Of a DNA stretch of 64,000 nt, positions 55,074 to 59,502 are shown piece by piece. This DNA is from Chloroflexota bacterium. GTDB taxonomy: Bacteria > Chloroflexota > Anaerolineae > J036 > Brachytrichaceae. Under the pieces are notes generated by a model. That model was not told the DNA's origin. It did no database searches and was given only the letters and a program-made list of their open reading frames with translations. Where the stretch lies: the NCBI GenBank assembly GCA_025354985.1, contig JANXLU010000066.1, positions 1 through 64,000 of the forward strand, written 5' to 3'. Position 1 is the stretch's first letter, and each line of letters begins with the position of its first letter. The position numbers and the translations under genes are program-made.

Positions 55074-55140
55074 ACCATGTTGAGAGATTCCGGCGGCACA
55101 GGTGACCTACTCTGTGATGGCCTTAGGGCAGGGAGAACTC

Positions 55141-58100
55141 ATGCAGAACAAATACAGGTTGGCGATCGGAGCTACGATGGTGGTTGGAATTTTTGGTATG
55201 CTAGGGACGGCAGCAGCACTGCCCATCCCGCATCCGACGGTTATTCACGTTACTACCAATAGTTTTGCCAGCAACCCGAATGACGGGAAATGCTCGCTAC
55301 AGGAGGCGATGCAATCGGCGTTTAACCAGGACAACAAGCCGGTAAACGAGTGCGCGGGAACACCCGGGCCCACATTGATCGATTTCCTGGTGGCGGGGAC
55401 TATTGTGGTTCCAGATCAGATGCCATACATCCACAATGATGTATACATCATGGGTCCCATTATTCTGGATGGCAACAATGACCCGTTTCCCGTGACAAAC
55501 ATTGTTTCCAGTGGCACACTGACGCTAACCAACCTGACGATGCGAAACGCGGGTTATAGCTATATTCGGAACATGCAGGGCAAGCTGTATGTGGCCGGCG
55601 TGAGCTTTGAAGGCAATAATTCAGGTGGTGGCGGTGGTGGCGCTATCCTTAACGAAGGTGGTGAGCTCTATATCGCAGGCGCCAGCTTCTTGAACAACAA
55701 AGCCGTTTTTGGCACCCGTGGTGGGGCCATCAACAGCACAGGTGCGTCGATTGTAAAGATAGCCGGCGCGGCCTTTACGGGTAACAGCGCGGGTAGCAGC
55801 GGCGGGGCGGTTGCGTTTGGAGGTGGACACCTGGATATTGGGGATACCGCGTTTACCGCCAACGTAGTGGACGGGGGCGGGTTCCTTGGTGGTGGCGCAT
55901 TGGAAATGTACTCGACGAGTAATAGCGAGCCGATTACATTGACACGAACGGCATTTACGGCCAACGTGGCCACAAGTGGAAAGGGTGGCGCGATTTGGTC
56001 ACATGGTGACAGCGGTGTGACCGTGACAATCAAAGATTCTTCATTTCAAGGGAATATTGCCGCGGGCGTCACAGTATCGGCAACGGGTGGCGCTATTAGC
56101 AATTATGACAACCCACTGGTGATACAGCGCAGCACGTTCTTCCTGAACAATTCACTGGACGATGGTGGCGCAATTGAGAGTGAACACGACAGCAGAGTCA
56201 TCCTCGGATCGGTGTCATTCTCAAGTAATTCGGCAGGCAATCGGGGCGGTGCGCTCATGCTGCCAAACGTGACGGATGGGCTGGCGGTTCAAGCCATTAA
56301 CGTGACCATGGATGCGAACACAGCCAGTTTGGGTGGCGCAATTTATAACTCGGAATCGCAGTATGACGTGATTTCGATGACAAACTCGATCGTGGCGGAC
56401 AATTTGCCGCAGAACTGCGTTGACAATGATGCCTCGTCGTTTCCGGTGCATACGGCGGGTCATAACATTCAGGACGACTTGAGCTGCTTCGCGGCAGCGG
56501 GCAGCGACTTAAACACCAACCCATTCCTTGAATTACCCGGTATCCACGGCGGACCAATTAGCACATTGACTGTACAGCGACCAGTGGCGGGCAGTCCGGC
56601 GGTAGATAGTGGCGACAACGCAACTTGTGCCAATGGCTGGGTGGAAAACAAGGACGTGCGCGGTGGAGATCGTCCGGTGGATGGCAATGATGACGGCGTA
56701 AAGATTTGTGATCGCGGGGCATTTGAGAACGACAAACTAAATTCCAAGTTTGATTCATTTCCGGCGCCCAATGCGACCATTGACTTCGGAAACGGTCTGG
56801 CTAACGTTGCGATTCCATTTACAGGTTTGAAGGTTAGAAACGATGGGGATGCCGCACTGCTTATCTCAGGTGTGTCGGTGATCGGTCCCAATGCTACGGA
56901 TTTTTCGGTGCCAGGCGTACCATCGCCTCTTGCACCCCACAGCTTGTTTCAGACCGTTACAAACATGGTGTGCACGCCAAAAGCGGTTGGTTTGCGTACG
57001 GCAACGCTAACGTTCAACACCACGGATTCGAATAACGCTACAGTCAGCTACAACCTGATGTGTGAAGGTGTGGCGGCGCCCACTGCGGGCTTTGCCAGCT
57101 TGCCGGCTGCACCCGGCCCATTGAGCGCCAGCACGCAGCAGGGTGCGCCAAAGGCGATTCCTCTGAGCTTGATCGAGACGGGCAACACCGCGTTGATGCT
57201 TAGCAATCCAGTGCTTACCAGCAACCCGGTCGGAGCGATGGCGCTTGGGGCAATTCCCGGGCAGATCGCGGATGGCGCTGCGCAAGTAAATACCTCGGTT
57301 ACATGCAATGCAACCACGGCCGGTTTGGCAACTGGGAGCCTGGGTCTTGATACGAACGATCCTGCCAATCCGCATGTCAGCTTTACCGTGATCTGCGATG
57401 TGGCCAAAATACCCGATGCGCCCATGTCGGCGGGGGCGGCGGCTGGATTTGGTAATGGTTCCTCTGCATCCAACAATGGGCCGTATGGGATTGCCATCAG
57501 CCCGGATGGCAACAATGTGTACGCTACAGATGATGGCGACAGCATTCTGAACGTATTTAAGCGCAATGTCGACAATACTTTGAGCCTTATTGAAACCGAT
57601 AGTTTGGCAGGAGGGGCAAAAATAGGCGCAACTATTCAGGTTATGGTTAGCCCAGACGGACGAAACGTGTATGTGACGGGCCTGACCGGCAACGGAATCG
57701 CTTCTTATGCAAGAAACGCGGCAACCGGGCAGTTGATCCTTCAGAGCACCGCACACAACAATGATTCAGAGTTTTGCTTTTTTTGCACGTTGAATGTTCA
57801 GGGTCTCGGCGGTGCGTATGGAATGGCGCTGAGCCCGGGAGGTGATCTCATTTACGTCAGCAGTGTGTATAGTCACTCGGTTGACGTGTTCAGGCGCAGC
57901 CAGATATCCACAAGCTTTGGTTCATTGTCTTCCTTTTTGGGACCAAGCCAGGTGCAACACTTTGTGGATGCGAACCTAAGCCAAGCCTACGGGATTGCCG
58001 CGAGCCCGGATGGCACGAACCTGTATGCCACGAGTTATGACAACAGCAAGCTTTTGGTGCTCAAGCGAAATGCCATTTCAGGAGTCCTATCAACAATACA

Positions 58101-59502
58101 GACGCTGACGACGGCCGATGCAAGCGGTTTAAACGGTGTGTTTCGCGTCACTGTCAGCGATGACGGGAAGAATGTATATACGGCAAGCTATAACGGTAGC
58201 GCCGTCTGTGTATTTAGCCGGGCACAGTTGGATGGCAAACTGATCGCAAACGCATGTCATACCAACGGCTTTGGTGGAATTACAAACATGACCTCGGCCA
58301 CCGATGTAGCGCTAAGCCCGGACGGTATGCACCTGTTTGCCACCGCCTTTGGTGGCAAGTCGGTCACCGTGTTTGAGCGCGATCCAGCTACTGGAAACCT
58401 GCAGTTCGCGCAATCCATCGTCCGTGGTGACGTTGGCGCCGGGCTACCTGCATTAGATGGTGCGCGCGGCGTTGTGGTGAGCCCGCAAGGAGACGCCATT
58501 TACGTAACGGCCCACACCGACGAGAAAATCGTCATGATCCCGTTTGCGCATCCGAAGCCGGTGGCGAACGCTGTGTTTCCAGCATCAAAGGTGCAGTCGA
58601 CTTCGGCGTTCTCGGTCTCAGTGCAGGGTGAAGGGTTTATCCCGGCTTCGAAGATTCGGTGGAATGGGGTGGATCACGCCACGCTGTTTGTAAACGTAAA
58701 TGAGGTGCGTGCGACTATCAGCGTTGCAGATCAGGCGACGCTTGGCGCCATACCGGTTACCGTATTCAACCCGGCACCAGGTGGAGGCACAAGCGCAGCC
58801 CTCAACGTGACCATGTTCGCGCCACCGCCCCCACCGAACACGCCGAATCCGCCGCCGCTGCCGCTGCCGATTCCGGCTTTGGGACAAATCTCGCCACTCG
58901 GCATACCCGCAGGAAGCGCAGCACTGCAACTCAAACTTGTTGGGACGGATTTTTCGGGTGGCGCGACCGCGCTGTGGAATGGCACGAGCCGACCCATAAT
59001 GCGAATAAACAACCAGCTTGCGTATCTAAACCTGAGCGCGGGTGACCTGACCCAGGCAGGATTGAACACCGTGCAGATATTTAACCAATTGCCGGTTTTG
59101 GCACGTGGTGAGGAGTTGGATTTGGTTGGAAATGCATCAAACACCCAGGTGTTTGAAGTGACCGCCATCAACCAAAACCCGATACCCTCCATCGATACGC
59201 TGTCACCAAATAATAGCCGGGTGGGACAGGTGAAGGGCCAGTTGGTCGTGATTATCAACGGCGCGAATTTCCTGCCAAGCTCACAGGCGCACTGGAATGG
59301 CACAAACAAACCCACGCAATACGTAAGCAAGACGCAGCTTAAGATGACGATCAGCGCAGGCGATCTCGTTCTGCCAGGGTTTGGCAGTGTTTCCGTTTCG
59401 ACGTCAACACCCGGCGGTGGAGATTCAAACATTGCGGCGTTTAGCATCGCCTCTGCGTTCTCGGCGGCACCGCAGGCTTATCTGCCTATGCTGAAGCGTT
59501 AG
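55141..59502 (+). CDS. Very large secreted mosaic surface protein (CSLREA, beta-helix, propeller, IPT)
   Basis: A 1453-residue secreted protein. A signal peptide (LAIGATMVVGIFGMLGTAAA) is followed by a CSLREA-type segment (GKCSLQEAMQSAF). A polymorphic beta-helix of about 400 residues carries repeated GG-A-I turns (GGGGGGAILNEGG; GGAINSTGA). Two immunoglobulin-like segments follow (about 540-760), then an NHL/lactonase-type beta-propeller (about 770-1130, with repeated SPDGxNVY). The protein closes with three IPT/TIG-like repeats, each with a WNG core. The last residues are AYLPMLKR. It probably acts as an adhesin or surface-layer protein. The ATG at 55141 has a nearby GGGAGA ribosome site. 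Confidence 0.85.
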   Translation: MQNKYRLAIGATMVVGIFGMLGTAAALPIPHPTVIHVTTNSFASNPNDGKCSLQEAMQSAFNQDNKPVNECAGTPGPTLIDFLVAGTIVVPDQMPYIHNDVYIMGPIILDGNNDPFPVTNIVSSGTLTLTNLTMRNAGYSYIRNMQGKLYVAGVSFEGNNSGGGGGGAILNEGGELYIAGASFLNNKAVFGTRGGAINSTGASIVKIAGAAFTGNSAGSSGGAVAFGGGHLDIGDTAFTANVVDGGGFLGGGALEMYSTSNSEPITLTRTAFTANVATSGKGGAIWSHGDSGVTVTIKDSSFQGNIAAGVTVSATGGAISNYDNPLVIQRSTFFLNNSLDDGGAIESEHDSRVILGSVSFSSNSAGNRGGALMLPNVTDGLAVQAINVTMDANTASLGGAIYNSESQYDVISMTNSIVADNLPQNCVDNDASSFPVHTAGHNIQDDLSCFAAAGSDLNTNPFLELPGIHGGPISTLTVQRPVAGSPAVDSGDNATCANGWVENKDVRGGDRPVDGNDDGVKICDRGAFENDKLNSKFDSFPAPNATIDFGNGLANVAIPFTGLKVRNDGDAALLISGVSVIGPNATDFSVPGVPSPLAPHSLFQTVTNMVCTPKAVGLRTATLTFNTTDSNNATVSYNLMCEGVAAPTAGFASLPAAPGPLSASTQQGAPKAIPLSLIETGNTALMLSNPVLTSNPVGAMALGAIPGQIADGAAQVNTSVTCNATTAGLATGSLGLDTNDPANPHVSFTVICDVAKIPDAPMSAGAAAGFGNGSSASNNGPYGIAISPDGNNVYATDDGDSILNVFKRNVDNTLSLIETDSLAGGAKIGATIQVMVSPDGRNVYVTGLTGNGIASYARNAATGQLILQSTAHNNDSEFCFFCTLNVQGLGGAYGMALSPGGDLIYVSSVYSHSVDVFRRSQISTSFGSLSSFLGPSQVQHFVDANLSQAYGIAASPDGTNLYATSYDNSKLLVLKRNAISGVLSTIQTLTTADASGLNGVFRVTVSDDGKNVYTASYNGSAVCVFSRAQLDGKLIANACHTNGFGGITNMTSATDVALSPDGMHLFATAFGGKSVTVFERDPATGNLQFAQSIVRGDVGAGLPALDGARGVVVSPQGDAIYVTAHTDEKIVMIPFAHPKPVANAVFPASKVQSTSAFSVSVQGEGFIPASKIRWNGVDHATLFVNVNEVRATISVADQATLGAIPVTVFNPAPGGGTSAALNVTMFAPPPPPNTPNPPPLPLPIPALGQISPLGIPAGSAALQLKLVGTDFSGGATALWNGTSRPIMRINNQLAYLNLSAGDLTQAGLNTVQIFNQLPVLARGEELDLVGNASNTQVFEVTAINQNPIPSIDTLSPNNSRVGQVKGQLVVIINGANFLPSSQAHWNGTNKPTQYVSKTQLKMTISAGDLVLPGFGSVSVSTSTPGGGDSNIAAFSIASAFSAAPQAYLPMLKR

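Follow-up and report, generated by a model that had tools for sequence, protein, structure and literature searches.

A YLP-type tail at the C-terminus of exported Chloroflexota proteins and a PorU-like C25 peptidase as its candidate reader

What does a handful of residues do at the very end of a large exported protein? The question is raised by a stretch of 64,000 nucleotides from a Chloroflexota bacterium (assembly GCA_025354985.1, contig JANXLU010000066.1, positions 1 to 64,000), which as a whole is called the window here. One of its open reading frames (ORFs) encodes a mosaic protein of Sec-type export, built of several kinds of domains, with AYLPMLKR at its extreme end. It is close to certain that this ending is a genuine C-terminal tag of exported proteins, specific to the phylum, and, by analogy, it is likely to act as a sorting or surface-retention tag. 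The explanation that we regard as probable when taken as a whole is that this YLP box is an ultrashort C-terminal sorting tag, for which a PorU-like cysteine peptidase of family C25 is the best candidate reader.

The tail and the proteins that carry it

Does such an ending differ from chance? Genes were called with our own longest-ORF caller, and signal peptides were predicted with a hydrophobicity rule of our own rather than with SignalP. Tails were sought with the pattern [FY]-hydrophobic-P-hydrophobic-hydrophobic-x-[KRQHNS]-stop, whose last codon also admits TGG, and the same pattern reversed or with its residues permuted served as the control. In the window's own genome (G000, 4.19 Mb) it matches 17 times, while the controls match 11 times (reversed) and 3 times (permuted), and the narrower YLP-hydrophobic-hydrophobic-x-basic/polar-stop gives 3 versus 1 reversed. 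Twelve of the 17 matches terminate long frames of varied architecture, with the ends YLPVVKR, YLPVITR, YLPMLKR, FLPLVTQ (three), FLPLVTR, FVPLVVQ, FVPLVAR, FIPVLVR, FLPMVGH, and FFPLIKK. A paralogue of the window protein (G000:C91:144929-145825, L227), a frame of 1509 residues that is 37 percent identical in the C-terminal region, has VLLPLLMR as its end; because this tail falls outside the strict pattern, the tail counts are lower bounds.

In relatives, the tail outnumbers the permuted pattern by 52 to 1 (G260), 36 to 1 (G058), 47 to 2 (G067), and 25 to 5 (G163). G260 is identified as Candidatus Chloroploca sp. Khr17 by 8/8 identical probes, which puts the window in Chloroflexota. The survey of the phylum comprised 301 Chloroflexota genomes, and the family sums of tail versus reversed pattern show enrichment in f23 (244 versus 44), f33 (73 versus 24), f4 (40 versus 21), and f1, the family of the window (17 versus 3), and none in f2 (17 versus 50), f28 (58 versus 77), and f21 (3 versus 6).

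Beyond the phylum, the exact form RVYLPLVxR-stop was searched in 84,980 species genomes. It occurs in 33 stretches, all of which terminate open frames and all of which (33/33) we assign to Chloroflexota from the organism names in the record titles; viral contigs gave no match to this exact pattern. As far as searched, the tag is restricted to part of Chloroflexota. The YLPLVxR-like ending that the preliminary description had attributed to the phylum is thus the consensus in Chloroflexia, and its exact form was met in Chloroflexota only.

The anatomy of the tag emerges from 69 tailed ORFs, gathered from sampled stretches of 11 genomes and falling into 35 sequence-similarity groups. Their consensus is R-[VI]-[YF]-L-P-[LMI]-[VI]-x-R-COOH, in which position -8 is R in 27/69 and position -7 is V, I, or L in 57/69; neither position is part of the search pattern, so that their conservation is independent support for the tag. 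Of the tailed ORFs, 62 are complete at the 5' end, and 56 of these have a signal peptide, versus 276 of 1162 other sampled ORFs (Fisher p=6e-27); the check named in the preliminary description, namely whether secreted proteins are enriched in the ending, thus comes out in its favor. Stretches resembling a transmembrane helix occur within the final 45 residues of 2/69 proteins, and the tail is disordered in two AlphaFold2 (AF2) models, one of the C-terminal part of the window protein and one of a C25 protein. In an alignment of homologues of the window protein's C-terminal region, a choice-of-anchor Z domain is followed by a linker of variable length and then by the tail. The tag is therefore modular: it closes the chains of unrelated proteins of Sec-type export, at their very C-terminus, and brings no membrane helix with it.

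The tail has been catalogued before. Release 20 of NCBIfam holds two models of 10-11 positions described as "YLP-box putative sorting motif", namely NF050076 (sort_motif_YLP) and NF053834 (ultrashort_CTERM), with curated cut-offs of 15 and 10 bits. The phylum-specific tag proposed earlier, which may serve anchoring, secretion, or another function, is thus already on record. The window tail agrees with the YLP-box description in its place within the last 10-11 residues, its aromatic-L-P-hydrophobic core, and the basic residue at its C-terminus (AYLPMLKR-stop). Tails of other, related genomes exceed the NF053834 cut-off in 4/4 cases tested, while the window tail, at E<=10, and five other G000 tails tested match neither model (0/6), those missed ending in ...YLPMLKR, ...FLPLVTQ, ...VLLPLLMR, and similar. 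A genome search with NF050076 had no match at E<=0.001, a level that an 11-position model can hardly attain. Among open-licence PMC papers, no publication on the YLP tail or on an enzyme for it was found. What is new here is the co-occurrence with C25, described below.

Individual tailed genes offer some variations on the theme. One exported protein of 187 aa (L144:9468-10031) has two tandem YLP boxes as its C-terminus (YAYLPIVVKPAMVYLPIIQR). In G232, three near-identical tailed genes stand in tandem (L153:7700-15447), with the ends VYLPMIVR / VYLPMIIR, and the pattern search gives a fourth copy upstream. Two other tailed proteins (L151:1-1320 and L140:9973-11787) have a lipobox-like signal peptide, and here an N-terminal lipid anchor and a YLP tail may coexist.

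Candidate readers of the tail

If the tail is an address, which machine reads it? In the scheme that we favor, a tailed protein would leave the cell via Sec and lose its signal peptide; on the outer side of the cell, a dedicated machine would then recognize the free tail and attach the protein to the wall or sheath, with removal of the tail as the probable step. Foremost among the candidates for this reader stands a PorU-like C25 cysteine peptidase, which is itself exported and tail-bearing and which tracks the tag across the phylum.

Strong C25 matches (PF01364, E<1e-40, our own threshold) occur in 43/301 genomes: 33 of the 39 tail-enriched ones, which by our own rule have at least 3 tails and over twice as many as the reversed control, versus 10 of the 262 others (p=4e-29). 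With families f23 and f33 excluded, the figures are 11/17 versus 6/258 (p=1e-11), both p-values being inflated by genome relatedness, as kinship is uncorrected. The genomes on the enriched list that lack a strong C25 are G281, G056, G182, G202, G286, and G300, and ORF ends were examined for G281 only: it has 43 matches versus 28 permuted, yet 0/6 examined loci are ORF ends, and it was dropped and taken as tag-poor. For 29 genomes of the same class, the window's own excluded, the locus of the first-listed tail hit was fetched; it proved to be a true ORF end in 8/12 with C25 versus 2/17 without. The homologues of the window protein follow the same line. Similarity to its last 317 residues, tail included, gave 30 loci, of which 20 were counted after omission of 9 without a resolvable protein end and 1 duplicate; the tail is present in 15/15 from strong-C25 genomes and in 0/5 from the remaining ones, the latter including G125, which has a weaker C25 match and a YLP-like end (AYLPWANRQR).

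What do these peptidases look like? A profile built from Chloroflexota sequences identified 24 C25 proteins, each with a signal peptide (24/24), and 22 with a YLP-like tail at the end, which often has no aromatic residue (RVDVPLLQR, EVALPLVQR) or has a few extra residues. The catalytic His and Cys of the family are conserved in 18/18 aligned. PorU is the top PDB sequence match of a C25 protein (1e-8), and the AF2 model (predicted TM score, pTM, 0.86; pLDDT <50 in the final nine residues) matches PorU over most of its length, with a Foldseek value of 9e-22 over 842 columns and a VIA-align Z of 21.3 (569 residues, root-mean-square deviation, rmsd, 5.7), and gingipain R with a Z of 42.5 (335 residues, rmsd 2.6). 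Passages of PMC5445135 and PMC4560394 describe PorU as cleaving and modifying tagged cargo at the Porphyromonas surface. The C25 protein of the window's own genome (G000:C37) is fused to an NHL-type propeller, ends in YLPVVKR, and has no LPxTG-type partner adjoining.

Such partners are found elsewhere. At 9/9 loci of f23 and f60, the product of the gene directly upstream of C25 is exported and has an LPxTG-like motif, a helix, and a basic end, and the single partner scanned has a DUF11 domain; in Chloroflexia, this neighbor could hold C25 at the wall. In G149, the order is C25, an LPETG-ending DUF11 protein, and sortase, and in G297, it is C25 and sortase. The DUF11 protein of G149 (L278:3723-4388) has ...LLPETGRR at its extreme C-terminus without a membrane helix; this may be the LPxTG-type equivalent of the ultrashort YLP tail, or else the gene is truncated. 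All six genomes of genus g49 (Herpetosiphonaceae type) have a sortase ∼1 kb from the C25 gene, which in the two sampled (G107, G274) comes after PqqD, radical SAM, HprK-like, and S24-like genes.

The latter arrangement resembles a cassette for ribosomally synthesized and post-translationally modified peptides (PqqD-like, radical SAM/SPASM, HprK-like, and S24-like peptidase genes) that leads into a tail-bearing C25 (L280:7482-14448, L281, L282) and is also joined by the sortase gene in Herpetosiphonaceae. Similar genes lie in L296 and L298, and related radical SAM, PqqD, or HprK-like genes adjoin C25 in G165 and G283.

Is C25 then the reader, or simply the most constant cargo of a real tag that another protein reads? 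This alternative is a serious contender, if short of probable, and beyond the kinship already mentioned several observations weigh against the explanation with C25 as the reader. The peptidases are nearly all tailed themselves. Tails exist without C25, with one or two real ones and no C25 match in each of G034, G255, G205, and G269 and a single real one beside a merely weak match in G213; conversely, C25 is present in G061 and G290, where one tail hit per genome was examined and turned out not to terminate an ORF. The NCBIfam PorU model NF033707 scores 146-189 bits in an alignment that spans much of the protein (7/7 proteins), far below its cut-off of 420. Arg722 of PorU, 32 residues after the Cys, is linked to sortase-like action in passages of PMC4560394, and the column holds Gly in 18/18 aligned C25 proteins, which argues against naming them PorU. 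Finally, strict tails end 0/327 genes, 67 of them with a signal peptide, in stretches picked independently of the hits, so that a small minority of secreted proteins carries the tag.

Against the cargo alternative stand the presence of C25 in 26/26 genomes of f23 and f33 and the fact that the other families examined do not follow the tag. Choice-of-anchor Z, the sole cargo family traced, is found in 27/301 genomes, tag-poor ones included. Exosortase is ruled out, with 25/301 genomes, none in f1, f23, f33, f60, or f78, and no PF09721 match in G000. The tail-specific protease S41 is a weak lead: it occurs in 31/32 genomes, and its copy number, which correlates with the tail count (Spearman 0.69), likewise correlates with genome size, and the S41 genes of G260 lie no nearer to tails than expected. 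That C25 reads the tail is a new guess, which we hold to be roughly evenly balanced, or slightly less, against its being cargo.

Perhaps the tail is never cut at all, and is a docking strand that binds noncovalently to a scaffold of the surface or sheath. A short, extended, hydrophobic peptide at a fixed distance from the carboxylate, predicted to be free in the AF2 models, would suit this role; however, no scaffold family was found, and no neighbor family is shared beside the tailed genes in the sampled stretches, and we consider the idea unlikely.

Still less probable is a C60 sortase as the reader, to which the L-P core would be a variant of LPxTG devoid of the usual helix and charges. LPxT-like forms of the tail, such as LPMTIK, would agree with it, as would the sortases close to C25 in g49, G149, and G297 and the helix-less protein ending in LPETGRR. 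However, PF04203 has no match in G165, G197, and G255, all with verified tails, which rules out sortase as an obligatory reader, and sortases are equally common in tag-rich and tag-poor genomes. They occur in 210/301 genomes, and LPxTG-type proteins exist in the phylum; the earlier statement that no LPXTG sortase motif is involved thus applies to the YLP tail, which is unlike the usual sortase signal, and not to the phylum.

That the ending is no more than a final strand of common domains, or a product of chance composition, could appeal to the hydrophobic nature of all tails, which could complete a fold, but it is refuted at the level of sequence and model by the 35 similarity groups, the variable linker, the permuted and reversed controls, and the low-confidence coil, and hardly any likelihood is left to it.

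Architecture of the window protein

The frame is open at 55102-59502 (+) from a GTG; the ATG at 55141 is preferred as the start because a clean signal peptide results, and the protein then counts 1453 aa up to the final AYLPMLKR. The preliminary description spoke of a giant mosaic with five kinds of repeat domain: the kinds agree with the Pfam and NCBIfam matches (Table 1), while "giant" is generous for this length. "Choice-of-anchor" is the NCBI name for domains that occur with differing C-terminal anchors, and a tail in the place of the anchor fits with this. The last choice-of-anchor Z repeat is modeled confidently by AF2, with strands predominating. Within the window, no second frame of at least 60 aa ends in the broad motif; three further matches are frames of 14-33 aa.

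Table 1. Segments of the window protein, in window coordinates
Feature	Position	Strand	Basis
N-terminal signal peptide (MQNKYRLAIGATMVVGIFGMLGTAAA)	55141..55218	+	sequence, own hydrophobicity-based heuristic
Beta-helix region, Chlamydia-PMP-type repeats	55525..56481	+	PF02415 7.7e-7, TIGR01376; borders approximate
Choice-of-anchor Q domain	56518..56727	+	NF041518 30.7 bits, cut-off 25
Two choice-of-anchor D domains	56761..57405	+	NF012200 39.2 bits, two stretches, below cut-off 45; second border estimated
Lactonase-type beta-propeller	57454..58536	+	PF10282 7.7e-20; borders approximate
Three choice-of-anchor Z (PGGG, IPT-like) repeats	58552..59451	+	NF058597 181 bits, 2.4e-54, 3 stretches
Short linker, length varies between homologues	59452..59475	+	alignment
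C-terminal YLP-type tail AYLPMLKR	59476..59499	+	sequence, pattern searches, alignment; predicted free, unstructured (AF2)

Known sorting systems and the meaning of the tail

How does the tail compare with the addresses already described? Like LPXTG, PEP-CTERM, GlyGly-CTERM, and MYXO-CTERM, it is a C-terminal address on many unrelated exported proteins per genome; unlike them, it carries no helix. In passages of PMC1569441 and PMC11980579, the signals of sortase, exosortase, rhombosortase, and myxosortase consist of a motif, a transmembrane helix, and a basic cluster. In the window protein, the chain stops 3 residues past YLPM, with no helix or basic cluster as in LPXTG signals and no PEP motif and helix tail as in PEP-CTERM.

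The type IX secretion system (T9SS) with its PorU is alike in having a C-terminal tag on Sec-exported surface proteins, and the candidate enzyme here is likewise a C25 with a PorU-like fold and conserved Cys and His. The T9SS is an outer-membrane system whose tags are folded domains; instead, the YLP tag has ∼9 residues, and the PorU-type Arg is missing from C25. No T9SS model reaches its cut-off in the proteins tested, and the window protein has no T9SS sorting-domain match at E<=1. The role of the T9SS C-terminal domain is described in passages of PMC5445135.

Could the YLP box and C25 be the two parts of one sorting system? In a phylum without T9SS, whose wall we take to be monoderm, a peptidase akin to gingipain and PorU, kept at the wall by the sortase-type LPxTG protein encoded next to it, would then read a nine-residue tag free of any transmembrane helix. 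This proposal is a tentative one, and we would not call it probable. If true, an ultrashort sorting tag would have its enzyme named, and PorU-like sorting would extend beyond Bacteroidota.

The tag itself helps to predict which secreted proteins are surface-bound in an abundant and poorly known phylum, and current NCBIfam models miss the form that it takes in the lineage of the window. With C25 tracking the tag over 301 genomes, the question of the reader can be put to the test in Chloroflexus, Herpetosiphon, and similar strains.

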